Source of the DNA: a virus
DNA: 40,498 nt
Strand: one strand, 5' to 3'
IMG/VR virus record: IMGVR_UViG_3300024256_000021
Location: 1-40,498 of that record
Shown here in pieces: positions 5,816 to 33,797 of this stretch (position 1 is the stretch's first letter; the number at the start of each line of letters is the position of its first letter). The notes under the pieces were generated by a model. The model made no database searches and was not told the DNA's origin. It was given only the letters and a program-made list of their open reading frames with translations. Position numbers and translations under genes: made by a program.

Positions 5816-6895
5816 TTATTTCCCAGAAAAGTTTGAAGCGTCCTTGGACAATTTTTCGTTAGGGGTAATCTGTAAATTCTTTATAATATTTAATTTCGAG
5901 TCTTTAACGGTATTAGGATCATTACTGACAATATTAACAAAAGAATCTCTTAATGTTTTTTTAGGTATGGTTATTTGATCACCTATTAACGCTTCAGACC
6001 ACCTAATTGTGTCAATTTCTGCTACAGTAAAATCACCTAATGAAGTAGTACCATCCATCAAAGGGTTAAAATCTACATTCCCCCTATCAACTATTAGTTT
6101 ATTATTGCTTATCTTTATACCCCAAGTAGTTTTTGGTATCTTTACCAAATTTGTGTTCATTAAAAGTTTTTCCAATATTATATCTAAACCAATATTTAAG
6201 TTAGTTTCGAATAACTCATAATTACCTTTAATATCTGCACTCACCTCTATTAATCGATTCATTTTAAACAATCCGTCTGGGACATTAATATCCACATTAA
6301 AGGTTGCACCCCCACTAATATAATTAGTTGTTAACGTATCAATCTTAATTTGTGTTAATGTAATTTTTATAGTGACATTAAAATACCCCAAACCACTTCC
6401 CACATTTTCACTAAAAGACTCATCATATAATACACTTCCAACCTCTTTATTAAGTTCCCCATTAACCAATGGAATTATAATCTCTTGGATATCAGGTGTC
6501 TCAATGTACTCAGATATTAGTGTACTTAACTTAACACCATAATTTTCTGTTTTAGATTCGACTGCCTTTATAATATTTGACACAGCTCCTGCGAATTTAT
6601 CCCCAAAACCATCCGTTTCACCTGTATTATACCCTAATTGTTGTAACGTATCGCTTAAATTTTTCACTGTTTCGACATTGCTCCATTCACCAAAAAGATA
6701 ATCCCCCAACGATTTGGCAACTTTATCACCAAACCCTGGTTTTCCAGTATCATATCCCTTAGATGTTAAAAATTTTTGTATTTGTAAAAAATTCGGACCA
6801 GGTAAATTATCTTGTTCCGTCAGTAACCTATCTCCTTTCTGAAAAGAATAGAGTCTCTTAATTTTATCTATTTCCTCCGTCAAAGATATTTTCAT
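5816..6895 (-). CDS. Probable packaged protein with leader and two peptidoglycan-binding-like repeats
   Basis: 359 aa. The N-terminus reads LTEEIDKIKRLYSF and then GDRLLTE followed by Q28; Leu25-Thr26-Glu27 fits an (L/I)-x-E prohead-protease site, so residues 1-27 look like a capsid-targeting leader. Residues about 36-67 and 78-110 form two similar repeats (IQKFLTSKGYDTG then GFGDKVAKSLGDYL; LSDTLQQLGYNTG then GFGDKFAGAVSNII) that resemble PG_binding_1 domains. The remaining 250 residues are beta-strand rich, with alternating hydrophobic and polar residues such as GGATFNVDINVPDG, and I do not recognise them. There is no signal peptide. The start is set by ATG at 6895, 5 nt after the upstream stop, which suggests an operon with the acidic 247-aa gene. 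A role in contacting peptidoglycan after ejection is inferred. Confidence 0.75.
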   Translation of the reverse strand: MKISLTEEIDKIKRLYSFQKGDRLLTEQDNLPGPNFLQIQKFLTSKGYDTGKPGFGDKVAKSLGDYLFGEWSNVETVKNLSDTLQQLGYNTGETDGFGDKFAGAVSNIIKAVESKTENYGVKLSTLISEYIETPDIQEIIIPLVNGELNKEVGSVLYDESFSENVGSGLGYFNVTIKITLTQIKIDTLTTNYISGGATFNVDINVPDGLFKMNRLIEVSADIKGNYELFETNLNIGLDIILEKLLMNTNLVKIPKTTWGIKISNNKLIVDRGNVDFNPLMDGTTSLGDFTVAEIDTIRWSEALIGDQITIPKKTLRDSFVNIVSNDPNTVKDSKLNIIKNLQITPNEKLSKDASNFSGK

Positions 6896-18518: not shown

Positions 18519-20579
18519 TTAAGTGTATAAAATATCAGAACCTTTAGATGGTTGAGCTTGAAAAACTGACGAAGGATCCCCATCACCATTAGCTATCTTT
18601 TGATATACTTCAATGATTTTACTAGTTAACTGACTTTCCATGTTGGCGCTTATTGCGGTATTAGAATTAATGTTAACATTTATGGTTGCCGTACCACTAA
18701 CTTTCATTTCTGAAGAAGTTCCATTTCCATCTCCTCCACCCATTAACTTTTTAGGGTCACCAGCCGCTATTAAATCCCTATCATCTAAAGATATTGACCC
18801 AAACTCACCTGATAAAACTCTACCATTTGATCCTGGAAATGAGACTATATCCTTACCTGGAACTTCTTCTGCTGCTGAGTCATCTTTCACCACCTTTTCT
18901 GGTGTATCTTCTTTTTTAATCTTCAAAAACTCACCTATTGATTCCTTTACTGTAGTGACAAATTTTGCTACCTCTTCTGTTGCACCATTAAAAGTGGTAT
19001 CCCACTCAGTTTTATCAAATAAATCACCAGGTTTAAATTCTGATGTAAATTTTGATGTCATAGCATCCATACTGAGTTTCATAGGACCTAATAAATTCTC
19101 TTTCATTTCCTCAGCAGTTATTTCATATAAATCAGTTGTCCCCGCAATGGTTGCCATAGAAGCTTCTTTTGCGCTAACTAATTGTTCTGACATTGTTTGG
19201 GTATTCATTGCGATACGTTTAAAAAGGTCACTATCTGTTTTACCTTCCACATTCTCATCATCTGCTTTAATTATCTCAGCAGCTAAATCATCCCCAATCT
19301 GATCTAACCCCAGTTCTTCACCCTTATGTTGTATAACAAATTCCCCCCTTTCTGCAGAAAACTTTGCCAAAGAAGCTAAACTTTCTTTAGTGTCAGAATC
19401 AGTAAGTGATGTGAATTTCATTTTAACGTCTTTTATTTTAGATGACTGACGAGCCATTTCTACCATCTTTTCAGTATTAATACCTAATTGTTCACCAGCA
19501 GATTTTAATTGCATTCTAACTTCCGCGGGAAATTCATACTCACCAGTCTCATCGTTAAACTGCATCATATTTTCAGTCATATCACCTAATTTCTTAGCTA
19601 ACTCTTCTGGTTTGTTACGAGCTAAATACATCGTTTCAAAAGGGTCACCAAATGCATCCGCAATATCACCACCCAACATCTGTAAATTAGCAGCAGCTTC
19701 AATAGCCGCTTCGGGTTGGTAGAATTTATCTGCCATTTGTAAAACATCACTAACGTCTAAACGCATTTTAACAGCTTGTTTAGCCATTTCCGTCATACCC
19801 CTAACACCACTAGAAAAAGAATACGATTGTAAAGTACCCATATTATTTGATAAAACTTTTATAACTTTATTAGCGTTTAACCCTATTGCTTGTGATTCTT
19901 TAAAAACAGTTGCTAAATGCACTCCCATTGTATCAGTAGAAACCCCCATTAAATCAAACTTTTCAGCCATACGTGCTGCATCGGCAGCCATCATATTCGT
20001 ACCCTTACTTATTTCTTCTATATTAACAATATCTTCAGCATCTAATACTTTCATTCTACCAGACTCTTCAGCCATTGTATTCATTATATTGGTAACATCT
20101 TCCATACTACCACCCATCTGTTCTACCTCTGACAATGAATTTTTAAATGACCTAGTTAGTCTATCACTCATACCTGCAGTCGCACCCATATCTCTAGAAA
20201 CGGATAAATATTCTTTTGCAATCTTTTGTGCGTAATTATATTGTGCTGCGGTAGTTTGTAAGAAGTTGGTAAACTCCCTATATGTGACATTAACCTCTTG
20301 TTGTATTCTCCCTACTACCTTTTCTTGCCTACCTAAAACCTTTAGTTGTTTTTCCTGTAATTTTAATAATTCTTTAGCTTGCTCCCCAATCTTATCATTT
20401 CTTTTTGATAAATCTTTATATTGGGCAATTTTATCCTTTATAGTGGCTTTCTGTTCCTCCCTTTCTTTTAAACTTATTCCGTTGATATCCGAAAACCATC
20501 CTTTAGATTCAGCCCTTAATTCCTTTAATTGTTTAACCTTTTTTCGATACCCATCGTCATCCCAAGGATCTGCTGCCAT
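18519..20579 (-). CDS. Probable tail tape measure protein
   Basis: 686 aa, almost entirely alpha-helical. A Lys/Glu-rich coiled-coil N-terminus (residues about 10-95, for example AKELLKLQEKQLKVLGRQEK) is followed by a long Met/Ala/Ser-rich helical region with repeated EEISKG-, MAEKF- and AANLQML-type segments typical of tape measures. The C-terminal part has a Gly/Ser-rich stretch and the sequence SGTATINVNINSNTAI, a short beta segment often seen near tape-measure ends. The position, after the tail chaperone gene and before the baseplate genes, is canonical. At about 1.5 angstrom per residue a tail of roughly 100 nm would fit. No transmembrane helix or lysozyme domain is evident. Other helical tail proteins such as gp29-type hub parts remain possible. 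Confidence 0.7.
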   Translation of the reverse strand: MAADPWDDDGYRKKVKQLKELRAESKGWFSDINGISLKEREEQKATIKDKIAQYKDLSKRNDKIGEQAKELLKLQEKQLKVLGRQEKVVGRIQQEVNVTYREFTNFLQTTAAQYNYAQKIAKEYLSVSRDMGATAGMSDRLTRSFKNSLSEVEQMGGSMEDVTNIMNTMAEESGRMKVLDAEDIVNIEEISKGTNMMAADAARMAEKFDLMGVSTDTMGVHLATVFKESQAIGLNANKVIKVLSNNMGTLQSYSFSSGVRGMTEMAKQAVKMRLDVSDVLQMADKFYQPEAAIEAAANLQMLGGDIADAFGDPFETMYLARNKPEELAKKLGDMTENMMQFNDETGEYEFPAEVRMQLKSAGEQLGINTEKMVEMARQSSKIKDVKMKFTSLTDSDTKESLASLAKFSAERGEFVIQHKGEELGLDQIGDDLAAEIIKADDENVEGKTDSDLFKRIAMNTQTMSEQLVSAKEASMATIAGTTDLYEITAEEMKENLLGPMKLSMDAMTSKFTSEFKPGDLFDKTEWDTTFNGATEEVAKFVTTVKESIGEFLKIKKEDTPEKVVKDDSAAEEVPGKDIVSFPGSNGRVLSGEFGSISLDDRDLIAAGDPKKLMGGGDGNGTSSEMKVSGTATINVNINSNTAISANMESQLTSKIIEVYQKIANGDGDPSSVFQAQPSKGSDILYT

Positions 20580-20582
20580 AAT

Positions 20583-21671
20583 TTAAGCTTTTAAATTTGT
20601 TATTTTACCTTTCCAATTCACAATTGCACACTTAACGTCTTTTGTTGTTTTATCTATCCATTTTATAGTCCCACCATTTTGAATACCTCTATCAGCGTTC
20701 TGAAAAGTCATCAAGCAATGTTTCCCATCAATTAGTAACTCAACAGTTTTACCTTCATTTTTATTGCTAGCTGACATAACTTTAAATTTCTCTGTATTCG
20801 ATAATGATTTACCATGTGTCATACAGTCCACATTGATCCCATCATTTGCTGGTGGAGCTGGATTAGGGTTGAATTCTATAGTTATCTCTTCATACTGTAT
20901 TAATTTCTCTGCCACAGAATTACTTTTTTTATTTTTATTTGGATCTCTTTGATTTTTAATTCTAAAATATTTACCCAATAACGAACCAAGATCATTCGCT
21001 ACAGTATCTGCGTCATCTAACATAACCTTAAATTCTCTACACCCCTGGTTAAATTCATCTCTTTTTGTATAGTCAAAAATAATTTTTGCATGATTGTTTC
21101 TACAATCTCTAGCATAATCATCCGCAATTTTACCTTCATGATCCGAAAGGGTTACAATTTCAGCCTTTATCGCATTTTTAAATGTTTGATGACATCCTGA
21201 TATGTTTAAACAGTCCGATGGATCAGATGTATATTTTTTAACAAAGGCGATACAATTACAAATATCGGGATCAACCTTTCTTTTAAAGGGGTTTTTTAAT
21301 TTTGTTTGTCCAGTAGTTAATTGATATACTTTATATGCCCCAACCACTGGTGCTGCTAATACCTTACCAGCGTATTTACCACCAACTATAACATAACCAA
21401 CACCCTCAGAGCCTTTTCTTTCCCACTCCTCAAAACTTTTAATTTCATCTGTGGTGAAGACACTCTCCCAAGTCACGTCACCACTTATTAAATCTTTACC
21501 GAGTTGATCTGACCTGTCACCAATAGTTAACTCTCCCTTATCTTTACTAACGATATCATCATACTTTTTATTTGTTGTGTTATCATCATCAATTTGTTCA
21601 AGTAATAAACTATCTATATAGATGTTAATATCCTCGACTATCTTATTTATATCATTAATATTATTCATCAT
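20583..21671 (-). CDS. Cysteine-containing unknown protein with packaging-like leader
   Basis: 362 aa. The N-terminus DINKIVEDINIYIDSLLLE followed by Gln26 is a charged helix ending in Leu23-Leu24-Glu25, matching the (L/I)-x-E leader pattern. A hydrophobic stretch near 94-115 (GYVIVGGKYAGKVLAAPVVG) could insert in a membrane. Residues about 135-215 contain clustered cysteines (DPDICNCIAF, SDCLNISGCHQ, YARDCRNNH, FNQGCREF), unusual for a cytoplasmic protein and perhaps metal-binding or disulfide-forming after ejection. No family recognised. It lies between the chaperone and tape measure genes, where T4-like phages do not usually carry such a protein. An ATATTTATT element lies 13 nt before its ATG. 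Confidence 0.7.
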   Translation of the reverse strand: MMNNINDINKIVEDINIYIDSLLLEQIDDDNTTNKKYDDIVSKDKGELTIGDRSDQLGKDLISGDVTWESVFTTDEIKSFEEWERKGSEGVGYVIVGGKYAGKVLAAPVVGAYKVYQLTTGQTKLKNPFKRKVDPDICNCIAFVKKYTSDPSDCLNISGCHQTFKNAIKAEIVTLSDHEGKIADDYARDCRNNHAKIIFDYTKRDEFNQGCREFKVMLDDADTVANDLGSLLGKYFRIKNQRDPNKNKKSNSVAEKLIQYEEITIEFNPNPAPPANDGINVDCMTHGKSLSNTEKFKVMSASNKNEGKTVELLIDGKHCLMTFQNADRGIQNGGTIKWIDKTTKDVKCAIVNWKGKITNLKA

Positions 21672-21707: not shown

Positions 21708-21923
21708 TTAGTCACCTTTAGGTAGTAATTGATTTAAAAATATTTTTCTGGAATATGTTGGTATGTTCATAATGTCACCATAACTAAACCCACCATGTTT
21801 AACTAAATACCCAATTTCTTTATGTAAGTTTGAGAGATAGTTAGAATTCAGGAAAGAAAAAATTTTTGCCGAATCTAAGAAAGCATTTAACGGACCCCTC
21901 CCCCTGGATCCGTGCGACCGTAT
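21708..21923 (-). CDS. Second frame of tail assembly chaperone, probably made by +1 frameshift
   Basis: A 71-codon open frame overlapping the end of the 260-aa gene in the +1 frame. It reads RGPLNAFLDSAKIFSFLNSN, then LHKEIGYLVKHGGFSYGDIM and NIPTYSRKIFLNQLLPKGD before TAA. This looks like a conserved phage chaperone tail (an EIGYLV, GFSY, DIM, PTYSR pattern). No ATG, GTG or TTG lies between the upstream in-frame stop (21924-21926) and the conserved part; the first ATG is deep inside it. Translation therefore most likely requires ribosomal frameshifting from the 260-aa gene. The position between tail tube and tape measure is where G/GT-type frameshifts are almost universal. Product: fused C-terminal extension of the chaperone. 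Confidence 0.65.
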   Translation of the reverse strand: MRSHGSRGRGPLNAFLDSAKIFSFLNSNYLSNLHKEIGYLVKHGGFSYGDIMNIPTYSRKIFLNQLLPKGD

Positions 21924-22623
21924 TTAAATCGATTCCTGGTTCATTATCGTCAATATATTTTCTTAATTTTCTAGAATCTAATAGTGGAATCTTCTTAAGT
22001 ATGTTCGATATTTGTATTTTACTCCTATCACCATCTACTTCAGTTACCATACTTTCAAGTCTTAAAACCACTTTATTAGAAATTTTACTACCTGACCTTT
22101 TCATTTGTGCCCTATCTCTTTCGATTACGTCATCCTCATCTTTAGCAGTTAATAATTTAAATTTTATTTTTTTATTAGATGTCGGTAGCGTAAAGTCGAA
22201 CTCATTATTTTCGTCAGGTTTTATGGTTAGTTTTTTTAGTTTTAATTCACTTAAATTAATTTCACCATCTACAAAATCACCAACACCCTCATCATAAACA
22301 ATTTGTTGGTATATCTCACCGATACCTGTTGACCTAAGAAATATTAATAAGGCAACCCTATCCCCCTCTAATAACTCATTCACCTCAAAACCCAAATCCT
22401 TAACTTTAGATTTTAATAAAACATCTATCATTTCGTTAGAATTATTACTTAAATTAGGTGACGTTAAAATAGATTCATCCATTGCGGTTAAATATTCTAC
22501 CTTAACCTTAGATTTCTTATTTTTATATAATAACCCTTGAGATGGTAATTCTACAACATCGTAAGGTGTTTTAAGATCCTCAGGTATATGGTTAGGATCC
22601 ATTGTTGACATAATTTCTTCCAT
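21841..22623 (-). CDS. gp26-like baseplate hub / tail assembly chaperone protein
   Basis: 260 aa. The N-terminus (YDVVELPSQGLLYKNKKSKV followed by KVEYLTAMDESIL) is the LPS-x-G-x-x-Y plus T-x-x-DE signature of the T4 baseplate/gp26-like family. The middle has an EIYQQIVYD segment and an acidic FKLLTAKDEDDVIERDRAQ. The end is FGKNFFFPEF, like the hydrophobic aromatic ends of this family. The gene lies upstream of the tape measure, so an assembly-chaperone role is as likely as a hub role. Its last 28 codons overlap the start-less frame at 21708-21923, and the overlap contains an unusually G-rich hairpin. A start further downstream at MSTMDPNHIP is possible, since the ATG at 22623 is only four codons before it. 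Confidence 0.7.
   Translation of the reverse strand: MEEIMSTMDPNHIPEDLKTPYDVVELPSQGLLYKNKKSKVKVEYLTAMDESILTSPNLSNNSNEMIDVLLKSKVKDLGFEVNELLEGDRVALLIFLRSTGIGEIYQQIVYDEGVGDFVDGEINLSELKLKKLTIKPDENNEFDFTLPTSNKKIKFKLLTAKDEDDVIERDRAQMKRSGSKISNKVVLRLESMVTEVDGDRSKIQISNILKKIPLLDSRKLRKYIDDNEPGIDLNTVARIQGEGSVKCFLRFGKNFFFPEF
21891..21912 (-). promoter_or_regulatory. G-rich hairpin in the chaperone overlap, possible frameshift signal
   Basis: On the minus-strand RNA, CGGAUCC pairs with GGGUCCG (one G-U pair) around the loop AGGGGGAG. This compact G+C-rich island is unlike the surrounding A+T-rich sequence and lies inside the region where the two chaperone frames overlap. It could stimulate or regulate frameshifting, or be an unrelated mRNA structure. 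Confidence 0.45.
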
Positions 22624-22684: not shown

Positions 22685-25051
22685 TTAATTAGATTCGAAA
22701 AATTTATTGAAACACCATGGCATCAAATTAACATATGCGACAAAGTCAGTTATACATTCTTCTTTTGACTTTTCTCCATAAATATTACCATAAGAACAGA
22801 AATAAGGGTAATTTGTCTCAAAATAATTAATATTTTTTTCGTTTATTTTAAAAACAACCTTACCGTTGGAATTTACCCAGTCAACTTTTGCTGGAATTAA
22901 AACTCCTTCTACCTCAGATGGTTCCAGTATTTCTACGAAATCACTTTTATTATTATTCCATGTCAGAAACCAATAGGCTTGAATTGATCCACAGTCAATT
23001 TTTTCGTCACCCTCCAAATCTTCATCTAATTGCCATCCATAATCTTTGTTCGGTTCTTCCAACCCATAAGTCACAGACGGAAGACTAATAGTTTTGTCTT
23101 TACTTATCTCACCTCTTTTAACAGCATCTTCCTCACAAATTGATGCGTACGATTTCTGAATTGTTATTTCATTTTCACTACATTTCGCTACTTTTGTTAT
23201 ATCAATGACATTTTCACCACCAGCGTTTATCCATACAACCTCCAGATCTTCTATTTCTTTTTTAACCACATCACACTCACTCACACTAAATATTTTGTTG
23301 TTATAATTCTTAATATCTTTAAATCCATCAGCAGAGTATATATCTAATTTCCCAATAACCCCTTTACAGTTCTCCCCATTATTGATTTCCTCTGTTAACT
23401 GTTTTAATTTCTCATAAATAAAAAAATACTTTTTGCAATTACATTTATGTCTTATTCTTTCTCCAATACCGTAATTTTTCATTTGATATTTACCCTCAAC
23501 ACCGTCATTATAGTTACCCAAGTCGATTTTAATCATATCTGCTTGCTTCTGAATTTCTTCTTGGGTGTTGTCAAACGTCTCAATACCTGCAGCAATAGCA
23601 TTTCCAAGTTTCTCCGAATCCACCCCCCCATACCCAGTAATTTGAGTAAAAATGTCATTCATTATTGTCTGTTCCGAACCACTCGTTAATGCATTTTTTG
23701 CAATCTCCGATGCTTTTGCCTCACAATCAAAGTTTACTATTTCCTTTACTGTTAAGTTTTCTAAGGCATCTTCAACCGCTTTTTCCCCTTTTGACTGGAT
23801 GATCTTTGTCAATGATTCTGAAGTTTTTTTAAAACTTAACGACATTCCACTAATAAGTGTAATCCCCCCTCTAACAGGCCATGCCCATGGTATTATAACA
23901 TCAAAGAAATCGACATTCATCTTTTTCCTTGGGTTAGGATTTAAAGTATCCAACTCCTCAACATGTACCCTAATACAATCGTCCAATTCATACTCCTTCA
24001 CAATCGTATAACTATCCTTAACTAAACCTGAATTCTTATCATCATACTCATTATACGTTTCGTTGTTCATTAACATTATACATTCATACAACCAAAAAAT
24101 TCCGGCAATCGTCATTTCAATAGCAGTTATTCCAAGAAATTTCCAAAGTAAACCCCATTTCGCCCCAAGAATACCCCTTTTAATCACATCAGCATCTGTA
24201 ACTTGTATACTTTTCTTTTTGTTCGTTTTTTTGTTGAAACTCGAACTTGATTTGTCTGTAGGTATCAATTCATACCCTTTGGATTTTAATGTTGTCTGAA
24301 GCTGTGATGTAGCATCAGCGGATTTCAAAAGCATATAAGTATCATAATCTTTGTGGCTCACTAGAAAATCCCCAGCACCAAAATTATTATGTCTCACCAT
24401 TTTTTTCACTGAGTATTTCTTCCCCCGTAAAACGGACATTTTAGTGTTTACAAACTGAGTTATATTTTGTTTAGATAGATATACAAAATTTTCTGAGACA
24501 GCTCCTTTAATATCACCCCTATTTATAATTTTACTTCCATCAGACATACCAATATTGATAAGTTTGGGATTATCGTCAAAGATTTCAGCAACATATTTTT
24601 CTTTTTGTTTCAAAGTTAAATTAGTGTCATCTAACCTATTAATTATAGAAGTAACACTATTATTTCCTCTTTTTTGTAATACATCGTCAACACCAGCAAT
24701 CACTTTAAAATAATTATTCAAACCATCCACCTCAACACTATTTAATTCTACCCCCGACTTCTTTAAATCATTTTTAATAGAGTTAATACCAATGAGTCCA
24801 TCAGCACTTCTTGTGTTTAACAATTCACCTATATTTTTAGAAGATATACCATTGTTTAAGTCACCCGTTAAATTTTGTAATCTCTGTATTTGTGGTGTTT
24901 TGACACTAATATTTTTCAATATATTGAAGAACCCCTTTCCAAACCCCTCTGTCAATAATTGTTTATTTTTTAATTCTATGGATTCATCATAAGAATATCT
25001 ATTAGACATTCTTTCTAATAGTAAATTAAATTGATTTCTATTGTATTTCAT
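22685..25051 (-). CDS. Large unknown membrane-segment protein with packaging-like leader
   Basis: 788 aa. The leader starts MKYNRNQFNLLLERMSNRYS and ends QLLTE then Gly36 (Leu33-Thr34-Glu35), fitting an (L/I)-x-E cleavage site. A hydrophobic segment at about 294-330 (WGLLWKFLGITAIEMTIAG and onward) is a likely membrane helix; a weaker one lies near 380-400 (VIIPWAWPVRGGITLISG). The C-terminal half has many cysteines (for example RHKCNCKKYF, NGENCKGV, AKCSEN, DCGSIQ). No enzyme motif is recognised. A virion protein that inserts into the host envelope after ejection would fit. The first 16 residues are similar to those of an orphan 28-codon ORF at 25055-25141 just upstream. Confidence 0.75.
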   Translation of the reverse strand: MKYNRNQFNLLLERMSNRYSYDESIELKNKQLLTEGFGKGFFNILKNISVKTPQIQRLQNLTGDLNNGISSKNIGELLNTRSADGLIGINSIKNDLKKSGVELNSVEVDGLNNYFKVIAGVDDVLQKRGNNSVTSIINRLDDTNLTLKQKEKYVAEIFDDNPKLINIGMSDGSKIINRGDIKGAVSENFVYLSKQNITQFVNTKMSVLRGKKYSVKKMVRHNNFGAGDFLVSHKDYDTYMLLKSADATSQLQTTLKSKGYELIPTDKSSSSFNKKTNKKKSIQVTDADVIKRGILGAKWGLLWKFLGITAIEMTIAGIFWLYECIMLMNNETYNEYDDKNSGLVKDSYTIVKEYELDDCIRVHVEELDTLNPNPRKKMNVDFFDVIIPWAWPVRGGITLISGMSLSFKKTSESLTKIIQSKGEKAVEDALENLTVKEIVNFDCEAKASEIAKNALTSGSEQTIMNDIFTQITGYGGVDSEKLGNAIAAGIETFDNTQEEIQKQADMIKIDLGNYNDGVEGKYQMKNYGIGERIRHKCNCKKYFFIYEKLKQLTEEINNGENCKGVIGKLDIYSADGFKDIKNYNNKIFSVSECDVVKKEIEDLEVVWINAGGENVIDITKVAKCSENEITIQKSYASICEEDAVKRGEISKDKTISLPSVTYGLEEPNKDYGWQLDEDLEGDEKIDCGSIQAYWFLTWNNNKSDFVEILEPSEVEGVLIPAKVDWVNSNGKVVFKINEKNINYFETNYPYFCSYGNIYGEKSKEECITDFVAYVNLMPWCFNKFFESN

Positions 25052-25148: not shown

Positions 25149-26021
25149 TTATTTGAATACCTTTAACATATCATCTAAGCTTCCGTACCCTATCATCTTC
25201 GCCCCATTATTGTCAGTCACCAATTGATCTGTAGAGAGACCAGTGGACCATTTCCTACTGCTGTGAGGATCAGACATGTCAGATAGGGGGTTATATCCCG
25301 TAGGATTATTGATACTATCAGTTAACATCGTATCTAAACTCTTGGTTTTGATAAACCCTTGTTTATAATACCCAGCAACACTAATATCATTGTACATATC
25401 ATTATCAAAATCATACTTAAATTTATATTTCACATATTTTATTATTGTGCTATGATTAATCAATTCATTAGATCCTGCAACTGTTAATAACGCAGTAGAA
25501 GGATCTCCAATTGTTCGCGTCAATTTTTCGACACTATTTAAATTAATTTCGTATGGTAATTTTAAATAAAAACCACCATCCCCGTCATCCCAAAAATTTA
25601 TTCTTTCTACTGCGGTAGTACCAAGCGCAGTAATAAGATTCAAATACTTAACATAGTAAAAACATATACCCCCATTTGACGAAAAATTACTCATAATTTT
25701 TCCATTTTTTACTATGGACCCACCATCATAACTTTTAACCCTATCATAAATCTTCTTCATGTTTGGTTTTTCGTAACATATATTTTGCACATTTTTTTCA
25801 ACTCCACCACCCTTTTTAATAAAATAGTCCTGTGATTTTAAAAACGCGGACGCTTCTTCAGGATTAATATCACTACCTGAAGCAGTAAATTCAACACCAT
25901 CTATTACACCATCATTATTGGTGTCAGGATTACCCTGCTCATTTATTATATTCCCATATAACCTTTCTTCTGTAAAAAGTTTTTTAATCCTTTCTACCTC
26001 TTCTTTTAATCTATTTTTCAT
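25149..26021 (-). CDS. Unknown protein with packaging-like leader and EF-hand loop
   Basis: 290 aa. The leader EEVERIKKLFTEERLYGN is almost the same as that of the 564-aa MORN protein (EEINRIKSLFTEERMFGN), and ends Ile26-Asn27-Glu28 before Gln29. Right after the predicted cut, residues 33-44 (DTNNDGVIDGVE) are a perfect 12-residue EF-hand/dockerin-type calcium loop with ligands at Asp33, Asn35, Asp37, Asp41 and Glu44. The rest (for example GICFYYVKYLNLITALG and FKYDFDNDMYNDISVAGYY) is a mixed fold I do not recognise. It is followed after 97 nt by the 788-aa gene and preceded by the 933-aa gene (25-nt gap). Confidence 0.72.
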   Translation of the reverse strand: MKNRLKEEVERIKKLFTEERLYGNIINEQGNPDTNNDGVIDGVEFTASGSDINPEEASAFLKSQDYFIKKGGGVEKNVQNICYEKPNMKKIYDRVKSYDGGSIVKNGKIMSNFSSNGGICFYYVKYLNLITALGTTAVERINFWDDGDGGFYLKLPYEINLNSVEKLTRTIGDPSTALLTVAGSNELINHSTIIKYVKYKFKYDFDNDMYNDISVAGYYKQGFIKTKSLDTMLTDSINNPTGYNPLSDMSDPHSSRKWSTGLSTDQLVTDNNGAKMIGYGSLDDMLKVFK

Positions 26022-26046: not shown

Positions 26047-28848
26047 CTATTCTAAACCATCAAAATTGAAATTGACAATATCGATATTATTTTTTTTGTA
26101 GAATTCTTCATCTTCTTTGGATAATGGATTAGAGTTATGTGCATTTATTATGTCTTTAATTATATTCGGTTTTACTGATTCTGTTTCTAAATATTCTATT
26201 TCTGCGTTATATTGAGTTTCTAAGAAATCTTTAATTTCAGATTCAGTTTTATTTTCCCCCTTCATTGATTGTACGATTTGGACTAAATCTTCAAGTCTTG
26301 ATTTAACATTTGTTAAAGGTTCACCAATAATACTATTCTCCCCATTAATTATTATATCCTCTAAATTTTTCTTAGGTGTAATACCATAATCATTTAGGTA
26401 TTTATAAATATTATCTTTAAGGTTGTTTTGGATTTCAGTTATCAATGTACTATATTGACCGAATTGTTTTAAGTTATCTTTTAATATTTGTGATTCATTG
26501 TCATCTGGGTTAATATCTGTTGATACTCCTAACATTTTCACCAGCCCAATACTTGGAACTAATTCATCAAAGAACTTCAAACCTTTCTTTACTGCCTTAG
26601 CCGTTTCTTCTGGATAACCAAACATTAATGCGAATAAAGAACCTTGAAACAAAACGCTTTTTACATTAGGTACATATTTAGTGTAATTTTTTAATATTGT
26701 TGTAAAATCTACTCCTTTATCAAACTCTGATTGAATGTATTTTCTTAGTGTAACATTCTTTTCCGATGATTTTAACATTTTATTAAAAGCACTCTTATTA
26801 CTTGTAGATACACTTTCCATCTGCTTTATGAAAGCCTTCATCTCTTTAGTACCAGCAAAAGACATCACTGAATTATTTAGACTAATTAATTTTTTTATCT
26901 CACTTGACGATAAACCTTCAAACGACTCCTCAAAAGCCTCTTTCTGGAATTTCGACCGTTGTTCCTTAGATAACGATTTCCACGCTACTTCCGAGTAGTT
27001 TTTCATTGAGTTTTTTATGACTTTGTTATAAATGTCTGTATATTTTTTACCGTTTACTACCAAACCTTTGGCTACTTTACCTAATTTACCAGCGCCAAAA
27101 GTAAAAACTGAGAAAAATTGTAATCCCGCATTAAATTTCCACCCTTCATCTTGTTCATATACATAACCTAAACCACTTACAGCATCAATTGCTATCGACA
27201 ACATCGCCCCAGATGCTAAACACCCTGCACTACCAGTAAATGGACAAGTTAAGAACAATACTGCAATTGACATAATATCGAACATACAATGCCAATCAGA
27301 TGGACATTTCTTAATAAAATCATCCGCCTTGTAATAAAAGTCTCTAGTGTCGTGCATAGTTTGACCTAACCTCTTCGCTGGGTTATAAAAACCAGCACCA
27401 AAGGCTGACCCATTAAAAACATTCATATTTTTATTTAGTGTGTTAACACACCCACAACCCATAATAAAGTCTTTATTACCATAGTCATCTTGATCTCTTA
27501 CCTCACCATCAACGTCTACACCACTACCGGCATTATATATCCAATTTCCCATATTATTTCCCTGTTGACAAAACGTTTTCCAAGTACTATATTTATATTT
27601 TGCTGGACCCTGTAGTACTGACTGAAGAGTAGCCAAAGGCTGTAACCCCCCTACTGGAGTTCTACTACTATCATAAACAGCATCATCACAAAGGTACGCC
27701 TGTTTAGGGTTCTGAGTATCAAATCTATCATTCCAATTTTTTATCATATCCAAAAGTGAGATATACCCTTTCATCATCGACTCTACAGGTGTACCATTTT
27801 CCTTTTTAAAATTCACTATATCATTCTCAATTTCTGATACTAGGTCTTGAGCTGCATCCCACTTATCATCTTCGGACTCGGACTCGACACCACTAACATC
27901 ATAGTTAAATTTCCAAGGTTTCCGTTTACCACCAGGTCGGGGGGTTGCAATCAGTTTCTTAGCTTGATAGTAACCTTTTTCTTCTTTGAACTTCTTCACC
28001 CATATATCTCTCATAATAACGTCAGGGGTATAATTTTGACCTTTGTAAGTGTTATGATATAGTGACCATACTTCATTTACTACCCACTCTGGGGATAATA
28101 AGGTGGTTCTATTCATATCAAAAAAGTCGTCTAAACCTAAGTCCCCTACCCCCACCGCAACACTAAGGAATTTGGTTACAAATTTTTGATCTACCATCGT
28201 AAGAGACCCATCCTTCCATCCGAACACCTTTCGACATTCATTCCAATTGTTTTTTGTTTTATTATAACTACTTACATATTCTTTAAGATCTATTGAGTTA
28301 GCAACCCATTTTGGTAATATAAGTTTGTCCATCGAAACCTTTGTTAATGTGGTTTTAACTTTATTTCCGTAATACTCTTTTTCTTTACTGGTATACATGC
28401 TGGGGGGTTTTGCATCTCTTTTAACACCGTCCCAGCTATCTATAGTATTTAAATCATTTTCTCCTTTCTTCTTATTACCCACCCCCTTTATTTCTTTCTG
28501 TCTTTCTTTTGTCGACCTATAATACAACTCACCACCTCTACTCCAAGCAACCTTAAAATGTTCATTACCATATGCACCACTTTTAGAAAACCCATCCGTA
28601 TACCCTAATTTCTTTAATTCATTATTTATGGTGTCGAGTCTTTTTTTATCTTTATAAACCCACTCTCTAAAATTATCACCATCAGATTTATTTTTTATAA
28701 GTTTATTATAAAGATCTTGATACGTTTTAAGTGTATCATAATTAAAGAACAATTTTCTATTTAATATTTTATCGGCACCATTTTTGGTTTGTTCATTTAA
28801 AAAAACGCGACTATACTGAGATTCCGATATAATTATTCTGTTACCCAT
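26047..28848 (-). CDS. Very large unknown protein with leader and hydrophobic core
   Basis: 933 aa. A short leader (IIISESQYSRVFLNE then Gln20) is of the same kind as LTESQY/LTESDL leaders nearby, with Leu17-Asn18-Glu19 as possible cleavage site. A long hydrophobic region at about 517-560 (MSIAVLFLTCPFTGSAG and AMLSIAIDAVSGLGYVY) and others near 570-590 and 735-750 could span or enter a membrane. Around it are Gly/Cys-rich motifs such as FIMGCGCVNTLN. The arrangement of a membrane-like segment between soluble domains recalls translocation parts of large toxins, but no catalytic domain is recognised. It starts 5 nt after the 564-aa gene ends, in one operon. Confidence 0.72.
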   Translation of the reverse strand: MGNRIIISESQYSRVFLNEQTKNGADKILNRKLFFNYDTLKTYQDLYNKLIKNKSDGDNFREWVYKDKKRLDTINNELKKLGYTDGFSKSGAYGNEHFKVAWSRGGELYYRSTKERQKEIKGVGNKKKGENDLNTIDSWDGVKRDAKPPSMYTSKEKEYYGNKVKTTLTKVSMDKLILPKWVANSIDLKEYVSSYNKTKNNWNECRKVFGWKDGSLTMVDQKFVTKFLSVAVGVGDLGLDDFFDMNRTTLLSPEWVVNEVWSLYHNTYKGQNYTPDVIMRDIWVKKFKEEKGYYQAKKLIATPRPGGKRKPWKFNYDVSGVESESEDDKWDAAQDLVSEIENDIVNFKKENGTPVESMMKGYISLLDMIKNWNDRFDTQNPKQAYLCDDAVYDSSRTPVGGLQPLATLQSVLQGPAKYKYSTWKTFCQQGNNMGNWIYNAGSGVDVDGEVRDQDDYGNKDFIMGCGCVNTLNKNMNVFNGSAFGAGFYNPAKRLGQTMHDTRDFYYKADDFIKKCPSDWHCMFDIMSIAVLFLTCPFTGSAGCLASGAMLSIAIDAVSGLGYVYEQDEGWKFNAGLQFFSVFTFGAGKLGKVAKGLVVNGKKYTDIYNKVIKNSMKNYSEVAWKSLSKEQRSKFQKEAFEESFEGLSSSEIKKLISLNNSVMSFAGTKEMKAFIKQMESVSTSNKSAFNKMLKSSEKNVTLRKYIQSEFDKGVDFTTILKNYTKYVPNVKSVLFQGSLFALMFGYPEETAKAVKKGLKFFDELVPSIGLVKMLGVSTDINPDDNESQILKDNLKQFGQYSTLITEIQNNLKDNIYKYLNDYGITPKKNLEDIIINGENSIIGEPLTNVKSRLEDLVQIVQSMKGENKTESEIKDFLETQYNAEIEYLETESVKPNIIKDIINAHNSNPLSKEDEEFYKKNNIDIVNFNFDGLE

Positions 28849-28853
28849 ATCTT

Positions 28854-30548
28854 TTATACAACTCTACTTAGAAGTTTAGCCCATTGGACTGGACCCTTTT
28901 GGATTATTCCCGCCACAGTAAGTTCCTCATTTTCGGGTAACTCTATAGCTTTATTGACAGCGTCTTCAAACCCATCCTTAAACTGTTTATTTCTACCGAA
29001 TATCTTCTCTTCAGGTTTAGAAATTATTCTATACTCATTCTCACCCACTTTTTTAATTTTTCCGCGACTTCTGCCATTTATTATAATTTCGTATTTTTGA
29101 CCAATAACACCACCATCGGGTTTTTCATAATCGATATTCCATTGTTTTTTTAATAGATAAACACCCTTTCCCTTTTTAAATAGACCAATTTTTTCTAATT
29201 TACTATGGTAATTACCTAAACACCATTCTATATAACCTCTCGCGTCATCTTCCTTATCACCAAAAGCGTCTTCCATTGTCATACCTTCCTTAGCCAACTT
29301 AATATAATTACCCATATTTTCTCTACACCCTCCAGGACCAGAAAATATCTTTTTAAATTCCCCTTTATCTTGCCTATCGTCTTTTCTTTTTTCCGCCACA
29401 GTTGTTATATTGTCAACACCGTCAGAGTCAACAGGGACATAAAACATTTTACCGTCATTATCCACTAACTTACCACTATCATCCATTATCTTCATCGATT
29501 TTGATGGTGTTTTTGAATTCTTCTCACTAAACATACTACGTAATATATCAAAAGATATCCTTGTTCCACCCACAGGTTTCCAATCGACACTTTCAAAATC
29601 ATCAATATCTTTCCGTTTCTTTATAATAGTTTCGTCTGTGGGGTTTTTATACCATATATCATAAAATAATATATTATCACCCTCTTTCTTAACATTAGTT
29701 AAGATAGTGTCATATTCAGTTTTATATTCAGGGGTATCATTTCCAGCTCCACTATCAGTACCAGCTCCACTATCAGTTCCACTATCAGTATCATTTCCAG
29801 CTCCACTATCAGTATCAGTATCAGTATCAGTATCAGCTCCAGTATCAGTATCATTTCCAGCTCCACTATCAGTATCAGTATCAGTATCAGCTCCAGTATC
29901 AGCTCCACTATCACTATCAGTATTACCTTCAGGTTCCGTATAAGAACTATTTATGGTTGAAGCTTTAACTTTACCCAAAGAATCAACCTTACTTGAGTTT
30001 ATTCTCGTTTCAATAGCGTCCATCCCTTTTTGGTTAGTTTGTTGTTTCCAGTTTGTCCCATCAGTACTATACCAATATGTACCATCTGGTAGCTTTGAGT
30101 AACTATACTTACCCCCTTTATCTTTAAAAGTCTCCACAGTACTTACAACATTTGACTTATCTGGAGTCACTAACTCACCATTTACAAATGTTCCAGATGT
30201 CACTGTTCCATCCTCCTTAGTAAATGTACCCTTACCATTCTCCATATCATCTTTGAATTCTCCGACATATATTTCACCAAAACTATTTTTATACGTCCCT
30301 TTACCACTTCTCTTACCATCTACATATCCACCCACATATTCAAAATCCACATCTTTCCAAGTACCTTCCCCATTTTTACAGTCACCTGCAACACATTTCC
30401 CTGATATTTCTCCTGGTGGTGTTATACCTGTTGGTATTTCCACCTCTGTTGATGCTTCAGTAATTAAGTTACCGAACATTCTTTCCTCTGTAAACAGAGA
30501 TTTAATTCTATTAATCTCTTCGTTTATTGATTTATATTTTCTCTCCAT
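28854..30548 (-). CDS. MORN-repeat protein with Asp/Thr/Ser/Gly low-complexity linker and leader
   Basis: 564 aa. The leader INEEINRIKSLFTEERMFGN ends Ile29-Thr30-Glu31 before Ala32. Residues about 58-125 contain three MORN-type repeats (GEGTWKDVDFEYVGGYVDG, GKGTYKNSFGEIYVGEFKD, GKGTFTKEDGTVTSGTF). Residues about 208-271 are a low-complexity stretch of Asp, Thr, Ser, Gly and Ala (units such as DTDTDSGAGN) encoded by a short DNA tandem repeat. The C-terminal half (for example GGVIGQKYEIIINGRSRGKI) is a globular region I do not recognise. MORN motifs usually bind lipids or proteins at membranes. The protein lies at the head of a run of leader-bearing genes. The leader and linker suggest a virion-carried protein with a flexible spacer. 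Confidence 0.78.
   Translation of the reverse strand: MERKYKSINEEINRIKSLFTEERMFGNLITEASTEVEIPTGITPPGEISGKCVAGDCKNGEGTWKDVDFEYVGGYVDGKRSGKGTYKNSFGEIYVGEFKDDMENGKGTFTKEDGTVTSGTFVNGELVTPDKSNVVSTVETFKDKGGKYSYSKLPDGTYWYSTDGTNWKQQTNQKGMDAIETRINSSKVDSLGKVKASTINSSYTEPEGNTDSDSGADTGADTDTDTDSGAGNDTDTGADTDTDTDTDSGAGNDTDSGTDSGAGTDSGAGNDTPEYKTEYDTILTNVKKEGDNILFYDIWYKNPTDETIIKKRKDIDDFESVDWKPVGGTRISFDILRSMFSEKNSKTPSKSMKIMDDSGKLVDNDGKMFYVPVDSDGVDNITTVAEKRKDDRQDKGEFKKIFSGPGGCRENMGNYIKLAKEGMTMEDAFGDKEDDARGYIEWCLGNYHSKLEKIGLFKKGKGVYLLKKQWNIDYEKPDGGVIGQKYEIIINGRSRGKIKKVGENEYRIISKPEEKIFGRNKQFKDGFEDAVNKAIELPENEELTVAGIIQKGPVQWAKLLSRVV
29735..29922. repeat. Short tandem repeat coding the Asp/Thr/Ser/Gly linker
   Basis: Imperfect tandem units of TATCAG and CCAGCTCCACTATCAG, repeated about a dozen times within the MORN-protein gene. 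They encode DT/DS and GAG(N/T) units. Copy number is likely to vary by slippage. Confidence 0.8.
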
Positions 30549-30658: not shown

Positions 30659-31537
30659 TTAAGTTAAATGTCTTTTGAGTTCACCTATAACCCATTCGGG
30701 TTTATCGTTAATATCCGTCTCCCAAAAACGAAGTAATGTATAACCATTTTCTAAAGTCCATTTATTTTTTATCTTATCCTTAGTTAAATTTTTTATTTGA
30801 TGTTCTGTTACCGGTATCTTATGTTTAGTGTTAGGGTTACAGTGCCAAAAATCCCCATCTACTTCTATTAATATATTTTTACCCTTAATTTTAAAGTCGT
30901 ATAAGGCTTTAATCTCCCTCACATAAAACTGTGGGTGATATTCAATACCACAATCATCCATTAATTTACTAAAATATTTTTCTAAGTTAGAGACAGGTGT
31001 TAAACCATTTTCTTTTATATAAGACACTCTTTTATGACTTTGTTTTTCCCTGTTCACCTCTTTACTCCAATATTCCCTCATACCCTTATCGAGACTATCT
31101 AAAACATGTTGGGGTCTTTTCCTTCCTTTTAGAGCTTGGGAAATTTTTTTATTCCTTTCTAAATTATTAGATATTTTCTCACCATAGTCCAATCTTTCGT
31201 CATCGTCTTTGGTTAATCCCTTATTCCATATAACTAACTCACCATATCCGTACAATCTTCTTTGGGTGTCCTTAGACTTTTTCTGAGCGTCAGTATTATG
31301 ACCCCAATTATTGTTAATTCTAGAAGCGTGACCATGAATAAAATCTCTAAAACCCTTTTTAATTCCTAAAAATGATGGGGTTTCACCACACCCACAATTA
31401 CATTTTGGTGATATACCTTCTAAATTATGTTTAATAAAGGTTTCTTGTGGTTTGATATCATGTTTTTTGACATTATGAGATGATAATCCCCATAATGAAT
31501 CAAAGTCTTTATCACATATTTCACATTTGTGTTGCAT
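30659..31537 (-). CDS. Free-standing homing endonuclease, Vsr-like fold with zinc finger
   Basis: 292 aa. Starts with a C2H2-type zinc finger (Cys5, Cys8, His21, His26), then a Cys-rich CNCGCGETP. Residues about 104-142 (NKGLTKDDDERL and ISQALKGRKRP) are a NUMOD3-like DNA-binding segment common in homing nucleases. The C-terminal domain has SNLEKYFSKLMDDCGIEYHP, YDFKIKGKNILIEVDGDFWH and GYTLLRFWETDI, the E...D...E-x-D pattern of very-short-patch-repair-like (PD-(D/E)xK-related) nucleases such as the EDxHD homing enzymes. It would cut a related genome lacking the insertion and copy itself in. It sits between the tail tube and MORN genes, with its own terminator. Confidence 0.85.
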   Translation of the reverse strand: MQHKCEICDKDFDSLWGLSSHNVKKHDIKPQETFIKHNLEGISPKCNCGCGETPSFLGIKKGFRDFIHGHASRINNNWGHNTDAQKKSKDTQRRLYGYGELVIWNKGLTKDDDERLDYGEKISNNLERNKKISQALKGRKRPQHVLDSLDKGMREYWSKEVNREKQSHKRVSYIKENGLTPVSNLEKYFSKLMDDCGIEYHPQFYVREIKALYDFKIKGKNILIEVDGDFWHCNPNTKHKIPVTEHQIKNLTKDKIKNKWTLENGYTLLRFWETDINDKPEWVIGELKRHLT

Positions 31538-31602: not shown

Positions 31603-32091
31603 CTAGAAAACATTTATTGCTCTGTCAAACCGGAGTGTACAAGTAATATCAGCCAAATCTGAAGAGGAATAATCTAATGAACCGAAATCGGCATCATTTA
31701 ACTGAGTTCCTTGTAAAATCCATTTCTGAACAACAACACCAGTTGGATCTAACATTTCCAATTCAACATCCTTTTTGTATCCAGCGGCATAACCCTGTCT
31801 ACCTGTTACTGATTCTGAATGTAGTCTAACCCACTCCATTAAAGCTTGTGTAGCTGAAGGACCGATTGGGTCTCTAAATGTAACTGAGATTGTTTCCCAT
31901 CTAAATCTACCGATAACATAAGTTTCAGTATTTAGAAAAGGTATAGATACCTCATCACTTGTATATTTTGGTCGGCTTGTTGTTGATACCCACCATTCTT
32001 GTATTCCCAGTTCATCGGGAAACCTTAAAATAAACCTATTCTTTCTTAATGGTTCATAAGGAACAGGCATTCGCATTAATAAATCCGCCAT
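31603..32091 (-). CDS. 19: Tail tube protein, T4 gp19 type
   Basis: 162 aa, the usual size of gp19 tube proteins. It forms the inner tube through which DNA passes. The motif set KNRFILRFPDELGIQEWWV, RFRWETISVTFRDPIGP and ALMEWVRLHSES, plus the end SLDYSSSDLADITCTLRFDR, is typical of the T4 gp19/Hcp-like tube family. It lies downstream of the sheath gene, as in other contractile phages, but here four other minus-strand genes and a plus-strand cassette separate them. It is flanked by homing endonuclease genes on both sides. The start ATG at 32091 is followed by ADLLMRMPVPYEP, a normal tube N-terminus. Confidence 0.92.
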   Translation of the reverse strand: MADLLMRMPVPYEPLRKNRFILRFPDELGIQEWWVSTTSRPKYTSDEVSIPFLNTETYVIGRFRWETISVTFRDPIGPSATQALMEWVRLHSESVTGRQGYAAGYKKDVELEMLDPTGVVVQKWILQGTQLNDADFGSLDYSSSDLADITCTLRFDRAINVF

Positions 32092-32174: not shown

Positions 32175-33797
32175 GTGGATTATAAAAAGTTTTTTTTAGA
32201 AAATAATAAAGCTGGATTAAAAACCAGAGAATCTTATATTGAAAATAATTATAATGAAATATATAATTCAATTAACCTTTATTGTGATAGTATAAACTTA
32301 AATGGGGTTATTCCGTTTAAAGAAAAAATATATATCTTCATAAATAAATTAAGTGATACCCCCATATGTAAAAATTGTGATAAAAAATTAAAGTTTAAGA
32401 AAAGTTTAAGAGAGGGGTATGGTAGTTATTGTTCCATAAAATGTACAAACCAACACGAAGATCATAAAAACAACGTTAAAGAAACATTTAACAGAAAATA
32501 TGGTGGTTCACCAATAAGGGATAAGGATATAAAGAAAAAAATAGAACAGACAAACTTAAAAAGGTATGGTGTTACTAATATATTTAAAGATAGTGAATAC
32601 ATACAAACCAAAACTAAAGAGAAGTTAGGTGTACCCAACCCAAACCAATTAGATAGTGTAGTAGAAAAAAGGAAAAACACTAACCTCAACAAATATGGTG
32701 TAACCAATACACTATTATTAAATAACTCCCGTAAAAAGAACCAAAGTTCAAAACTAATTAATTTTAATGAAAAATATAAGGGGTTGAATGTTATTGACGA
32801 TTCTGGTGATTATGTTAAACTTAAATGTAATAACTGTAATGGTGAATATGATATAGATAGGGGTCTATTGTTCTATAGATTTAAAAATGGTATAAACCCT
32901 TGTACGATATGTAACCCTGTAAGTGAGTTAAAATCTATAAAAGAAAAGGAACTAACAGATTTCTTATCATCTTTGGGATTAAACCTTATTAAGGGTGATA
33001 GAGATATTCTTAATGGTAAGGAGATTGACATACTATTACCTGATTTTAATATTGGTATAGAATTTAATGGTTTGTATTGGCATTGTGAGAAATATGTTGA
33101 TAAGGATTACCATTTAAATAAAACTGATGTGTGTGAGTCCAAAGGAATACACCTAATACATATCTTTGAAGACGAATGGGTTAATAACAAGGATATTGTT
33201 AAAAGTAGATTAAAAAACTTATTTAAATTAACTGATAATAAAGTATATGGTAGAAAATGTATAATAAAAGAAGTTAATACTAAAGATAAAACAAAATTCT
33301 TAAATGATAACCATATTCAAGGTACAATAGGTAGTAAAGTTAATTTAGGTTTATATTATAATGATGAACTGGTGTCGATAATGACATTCGGTAAAGGTAG
33401 GGTTGTTATGAATGGTGTTAAAAATGAATGGGAGTTATTAAGGTTCTGTAATAAAGTTAATCATTCTGTTATCGGTGGGGCTAGTAAACTATTTAAACAC
33501 TTTATTAAAAACTATAAACCAAACCAATTAATAAGTTACGCTGATAGAAGGTGGTCACAAGGTAACTTATATGATCAATTAGGGTTTAATAAAACACACA
33601 ACTCAACACCAAACTATTTTTATGTTGTTAACAATGAAAGGGAACATAGATTTAAATATCGTAAGAATTTATTGGTTGAGTCTGGGTTTGACATTAAAAA
33701 AACTGAAAGAGAAATTATGTATGATAGGGGAATATATCGTATATATGATTGTGGAAATTTAGTTTATATTTATAATAATAAAGAAATTTCTTTGTAA
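32175..33797 (+). CDS. Homing endonuclease, Vsr-like, with two zinc clusters
   Basis: 540 aa from a GTG start (no ATG in a suitable place; A-rich leader before it). Two zinc clusters are visible: Cys65, Cys68, Cys86, Cys90 and Cys218, Cys221, Cys243, Cys246. Between them lie NUMOD-like repeats (TNLKRYGVTNIF, TNLNKYGVTNTL). The nuclease core is EIDILLPDFNIGIEFNGLYW (about 283-302) and YHLNKTDVCESKGIHLIHIF followed by EDEW (about 312-335), a pattern well known in phage-encoded Vsr-like homing enzymes. The C-terminal 190 residues (for example SIMTFGKGR, ELLRFCNKVNHSVIGGASKL) belong to the same family and probably contact DNA. It is on the strand opposite to the tail genes, directly beside the tail tube gene. 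Confidence 0.85.
   Translation: MDYKKFFLENNKAGLKTRESYIENNYNEIYNSINLYCDSINLNGVIPFKEKIYIFINKLSDTPICKNCDKKLKFKKSLREGYGSYCSIKCTNQHEDHKNNVKETFNRKYGGSPIRDKDIKKKIEQTNLKRYGVTNIFKDSEYIQTKTKEKLGVPNPNQLDSVVEKRKNTNLNKYGVTNTLLLNNSRKKNQSSKLINFNEKYKGLNVIDDSGDYVKLKCNNCNGEYDIDRGLLFYRFKNGINPCTICNPVSELKSIKEKELTDFLSSLGLNLIKGDRDILNGKEIDILLPDFNIGIEFNGLYWHCEKYVDKDYHLNKTDVCESKGIHLIHIFEDEWVNNKDIVKSRLKNLFKLTDNKVYGRKCIIKEVNTKDKTKFLNDNHIQGTIGSKVNLGLYYNDELVSIMTFGKGRVVMNGVKNEWELLRFCNKVNHSVIGGASKLFKHFIKNYKPNQLISYADRRWSQGNLYDQLGFNKTHNSTPNYFYVVNNEREHRFKYRKNLLVESGFDIKKTEREIMYDRGIYRIYDCGNLVYIYNNKEISL

Follow-up and report, generated by a model that had tools for sequence, protein, structure and literature searches.

A probable +1 frameshift at a phenylalanine codon linking two forms of a gp26-like tail assembly chaperone in a T4-like marine phage

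The analysed stretch of DNA (the window; 40,498 nt, IMG/VR record IMGVR_UViG_3300024256_000021) contains two overlapping frames, one of which has no start codon ahead of its conserved part, raising the question of how this frame is translated. The window derives from a T4-like marine phage and encodes a gp18-like sheath, a gp19-like tube, a gp32-like protein, a 5'-3' exonuclease, a DnaB-type helicase and a RecA-like protein. A gene for a 260-aa protein (21841–22623, − strand, frame 0, ATG start) is overlapped by an open frame of 71 codons plus stop (21708–21923, − strand), lying +1 relative to it. The coordinates of both agree with the first-pass annotation, and its further statements, i.e., that no ATG, GTG or TTG precedes the conserved part (EIGYLVKHGGFSYGDIM) and that the frame carries both EIGYLVKHGGFSYGDIM and PTYSRK, were borne out by the window sequence. 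A programmed +1 frameshift had been proposed for this site; chaperone frameshifts of this type usually slip back by one base.

The 260-aa protein scores above the curated cut-off of PF12322 in profile searches (28.2 versus 24.5 bits), representing the only match to this family in the 40.5-kb record, which is a fragment of a genome, and also matches phrog_150 (baseplate hub, E 5.5e-10). An AlphaFold model, comprising the short form only, reached a pLDDT of 92.6. Foldseek comparison of this model with predicted viral structures retrieved the SP-15 baseplate hub protein (E 9.5e-18), T4-like hub assembly proteins (E 1e-8 to 7e-15), Gp26 of phage 25 (E 9e-5) and gp51-like predicted proteins. Searches of the PDB yielded no significant match by fold (HK97 tail assembly chaperone 2ob9 at E 4.3) and none by sequence. 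As judged from profile and predicted fold, the gene product (short form, G-like) is a T4 gp26-family protein; T4 gp26 and gp51 are listed as hub assembly chaperones (PMC3004832).

Conservation of the second frame was examined in related loci. In a first scan (12 loci), the same C-terminal motif followed in the +1 frame wherever the junction was complete, and after two wider scans the set numbered 170 loci in which the junction is complete. With a profile of the T part, i.e., the product of the second frame, seeded with 11 T parts from this set (the scores of these 11 are inflated), 167 of the 170 loci were found to carry it in the same +1 frame (136/139 after removal of near-duplicates), so that the relation of the two frames, which the first-pass annotation had suggested comparing in relatives, proved to be kept. 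The profile matches a locus identical to that of the window (L002) with 77 bits; this locus resides on a second assembled contig of 24,458 bases, which shares 6,780 bases with the window at 100 % identity. Within the window's clade, substitutions in the +1 frame past the gene's stop fall mostly on third codon positions (657, as compared to 412 at first and 255 at second positions). Since the T part recurs in the +1 frame of relatives and substitutions are concentrated at third positions, frame 21708–21923 is far more than a chance open frame, in agreement with the earlier claim. This comparison lends good support to the view that the frame encodes the T part, i.e., the conserved C-terminus, of a tail assembly chaperone of the lambda G/GT type. 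The T part proper is predicted to comprise 49 codons plus stop (21708–21857, − strand; SFLNSNYLSNLHKEIGYLVKHGGFSYGDIMNIPTYSRKIFLNQLLPKGD), and its translation would follow a +1 slip on TTT|T.

The +1 arrangement also occurs in annotated phages of Flavobacterium, Microcystis, Bacillus, Streptococcus and Streptomyces; for phages of the latter three genera profile scores are weak (6–11 bits), and the T part was assigned by frame, place and a motif seen by eye. Exceptions to the +1 frame are three loci (L020, L167 and L170). L167 and L170 have their T part in the −1 frame and lack an ATG for it, which possibly reflects a natural switch of recoding mode. Both are close relatives of the +1 group, and L167 also has TTC TTC at its Phe pair.

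The site of the shift can be narrowed to an interval bounded by the last stop in the +1 frame and the gene's own stop, within which the shift is obligatory. This interval spans at most 30 nt in 20 loci and at most 45 nt in 54, the shortest one (17 nt, L013) reading TTT TTT TGG CCT GAA. Thereby the shift is confined in relatives to the FFWP codons TTT TTT TGG CCT; the corresponding codons in the window are TTT TTC TTT CCT. From these intervals and from motif counts, the slip region in the window was placed at TTT TTC TTT C (21852–21861, − strand), with TTT|T (21861–21858) and TTT|C (21855–21852) as candidate P-site codons; slippage at the former gives a predicted fusion of 304 aa. A codon able to re-pair after +1 slippage is present within the interval in all 136 nonredundant loci. 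The sequences are related, so the counts at the slip site are descriptive and do not represent independent trials: such a codon is found in 20/20 intervals of up to 30 nt, versus 6.8 expected on the basis of stretches elsewhere in these genes; TTC TTC at the Phe-Phe pair, located by motif anchoring since FFRPFF proteins contain a second Phe pair, occurs in 0/108 versus 8.5 expected; and the Pro codon following the Phe pair is CCT in 127/129 versus 41.7 expected. CCT preserves the Leu of the +1 frame, which reads Gly-Leu at this position in 106 loci. Judged by this bias at the Pro codon, selection on the +1 frame already acts several codons ahead of the gene's stop, which is not explicable by a start codon downstream of that stop.

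A further candidate site of the shift was a G-rich patch (CAGGGGGAGGGGTCC; 21892–21906, − strand), which codes for Gln-Gly-Gly-Glu-Ser and is kept in close relatives. This placement was abandoned, since many relatives (e.g., L007) contain a +1-frame stop between the patch and the T part, and the T-run at about 21852–21861 takes its place. Downstream of the slip site no RNA structure was apparent (mean z −0.12, mononucleotide shuffles), neither a stalling codon nor a stop codon was found next to it in the loci examined, and a search of the window for tRNA genes retrieved none.

The reading that accounts best for the locus, with a rough probability of 0.88, is that of a tail assembly chaperone made in two forms by a +1 slip at a Phe codon. 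Supporting evidence for the proposed programmed frameshift is comparative, with two conserved frames and their +1 relation (136/139), the confined shift interval with its re-pairing codons (136/136), and the selection acting on the +1 frame ahead of the stop. We infer that the shift is ribosomal, and likewise its efficiency: most ribosomes would synthesize the 260-aa gp26-like short protein and then stop, and in a minority the P-site tRNA-Phe on TTT of the FFWP-coding segment would slip one base forward, from TTT onto TTT or TTC, to yield a fusion of ~304 aa ending in a 49-aa T domain. A chaperone function is suggested by homology to T4 gp26/gp51, by gene order and by analogy to lambda. As in lambda gpG/gpGT, binding of the tape measure protein may fall to the shared part and recruitment of tube subunits to the T part; the likeness to the lambda pair is one of arrangement, and the shift there is −1 as opposed to +1 here.

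The same frame could also be reached by slipping back two bases at the same T-run, with one extra residue in the product, as in phage Mu, which attains the same net frame via −2 (PMC5009743). The window would permit such a slip from TTC onto TTT, and some codon able to re-pair after −2 slippage is present in 106/136 loci, but the obligatory interval lacks one in the remaining 30/136, as compared to a +1 codon in 136/136. Of the two shifts that the first-pass annotation had left side by side, +1 is accordingly favoured and −2 appears unlikely. Translation of the T part as a separate gene, from a non-standard start codon or by re-initiation past the stop of the short form, is a very unlikely explanation. 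It is exemplified by a single distant relative (L020), in which the T part has its own ATG at the gene's stop, and the annotation of Mel-JY01 lists the frame as a gene of its own. Moreover, the T frame of 60/136 loci contains a possible start codon close to the slip or beyond it (40 ATG, 20 GTG/TTG), so that some loci could make a free T part as well. However, no ATG, GTG or TTG is nearby in the T frame of 76/136 loci, including the window's clade; apart from L020, the relatives share no consistent start, and a separately started second part, which the first-pass annotation had named as refuting its reading, thus does not apply to this lineage. Furthermore, the +1 frame is already selected at the Pro codon ahead of the stop, and a single frame relation in 136/139 loci would not be expected of a free gene.

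Slippage of RNA polymerase on the T-run, generating a mixed mRNA population, would be conceivable for the 65 loci with a run of seven T (TTT TTT TGG). Several loci, however, have only four or five T (TTC TTT TGG, TTA TTT TGG, TCT TTT TGG), and in some the run is broken by C (TTT CTT TGG); such runs are short for transcriptional slippage, rendering this explanation highly improbable. The probability of a sequencing or assembly indel in the window is negligible: a single base would indeed join both frames, but the same arrangement is present in 136 nonredundant loci from many assemblies, including finished phage genomes, and the assembly error named in the first-pass annotation as a ground for dismissal is countered by more than a hundred contigs having this frame.

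A +1 slip at the Phe codon of the window gains in context from T4 and the cyanophages, where homologous parts are arranged differently. In profile alignments, with E-values referring to single comparisons, the T part matches cyanophage gp51 (E 8.6e-8) and the C-terminal extension of T4 gp51 (E 1.4e-4, versus 0.35 for T4 gp26); likewise, the cyanophage T part matches the C-terminus of T4 gp51 (E 1.8e-11), and T4 gp26 and gp51 align with each other over their shared part (E 2.3e-21). On the strength of these alignments, cyanophage gp51 and the C-terminal extension of T4 gp51 are homologues of the T part, the N-terminal part of T4 gp51 being a paralogue of gp26. T4 thus has a short (gp26) and a long form (gp51) as two genes, in opposite orientation, whereas the window has a single gene with a +1 shift. 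This two-gene form is already published (Vladimirov, Gautam, Davidson 2022); PMC10885494 refers to that work for the two copies, one short and one long, and PMC12846349 for poly-T −1 signals in T4-like chaperones.

Cyanophages (P-SSM2, Syn9) possess a homologous short form and T part (gp26/gp51) and share the Phe-Phe T-run at the end of the short form, but their T part is located in the −1 frame instead of the +1 frame. An invariant T TTT TTC precedes it in 38/38 nonredundant cyanophage loci. In most of these an ATG is found just past the stop, so that re-initiation is possible in cyanophages. The T part corresponds to the annotated cyanophage 'gp51' of 47–57 aa (L206 996–1891, L207 6478–7391, L208–L287).

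Among other known systems, a +1 shift with the same net frame is predicted for HSTV-2, a virus of haloarchaea (PMC5009743). Chaperone genes of Vandenendeviridae and Andersonviridae carry a poly-T slip site (GTTTTT) at the end of the short gene, as does the window, but shift by −1 and belong to another lineage (PMC12846349). A further link concerns DUF6760 (PF20546), which the T part matches weakly, below the Pfam cut-off, but exactly in place; the profile of the T part in turn matches a true DUF6760 member with E 2.1e-9. In genome-wide scans, DUF6760 falls exactly on the T part beside the gp26-like gene (L178, L179, L180). A true member (E 5.8e-17; L294 1118–1668), from a bacterial contractile-tail locus, follows the genes for the sheath, a gp19-like tube and a 122-aa protein with a CPKC motif, and is in the −1 frame versus +1 in the window. 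From this similarity and position, DUF6760 appears to represent the T part of tail assembly chaperones.

Two-form chaperones as such are an already known kind of system, and a broadly conserved +1 mode within the gp26 family, judging from the literature searched, looks new. On balance, we lean towards the view that a single homologous chaperone gene exploits its terminal Phe-Phe T-run in two opposite directions, namely for +1 in this widespread lineage and for −1 (T TTT TTC) in cyanophages, with gene duplication in T4 instead. The +1 signal would then consist simply of a slip of tRNA-Phe in front of a sense codon (often TGG), involving neither a stop codon nor structure downstream; no description of such a +1 signal was found in the literature searched. 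According to a 2016 review (PMC5009743), G/GT frameshifting is a conserved feature of long-tailed phages 'except T4'. T4 has since been assigned two genes, and its gp26 family would by itself meet the same need in three ways, by +1, by −1 and with two genes. With three solutions in one family, it becomes testable how one recoding mode gives way to another in a phage and why two forms have to stay. Annotations of relatives can also be corrected, the T part being entered as a truncated hypothetical ORF from an internal codon (Immuto, SP-15, LuckySocke) or as a separate hypothetical gene (Mel-JY01), or missing altogether (GXN1).

With respect to gene order, the locus had been described as standing between tail tube and tape measure. 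This holds loosely, as the gene does lie between the gp19-like tube gene (31603–32091) and a putative tape measure gene (18519–20579, assigned by position only, without a family match), but several large genes intervene in the window. In the annotated relatives Immuto, Mel-JY01 and SP-15, the order is tube, short form, T part and (putative) tape measure, with the short form directly after the tube.

On either side of the tail tube gene of the window, two probable free-standing endonuclease genes were observed, encoding a DUF559 protein (30659–31537, − strand) and a DUF7487/MTES_1575/Mom-like composite protein (32175–33797, + strand). Many proteins of the window carry at their N-terminus a short charged leader that ends close to [LI]-x-E (RLLTEQ, SLLLEQ, QLLTEG, IINEQ, FLNEQ, NLITE); genes with such leaders are located at 5816–6895, 20583–21671, 22685–25051, 25149–26021, 26047–28848 and 28854–30548 (all − strand). 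By eye, these resemble the T4 leaders for prohead-protease cleavage and capsid targeting, and the respective products may be packaged internal proteins. The last of these genes (28854–30548, − strand) encodes a protein of 564 aa that combines a MORN repeat with a long repetitive stretch rich in Asp, Thr, Gly and Ser.
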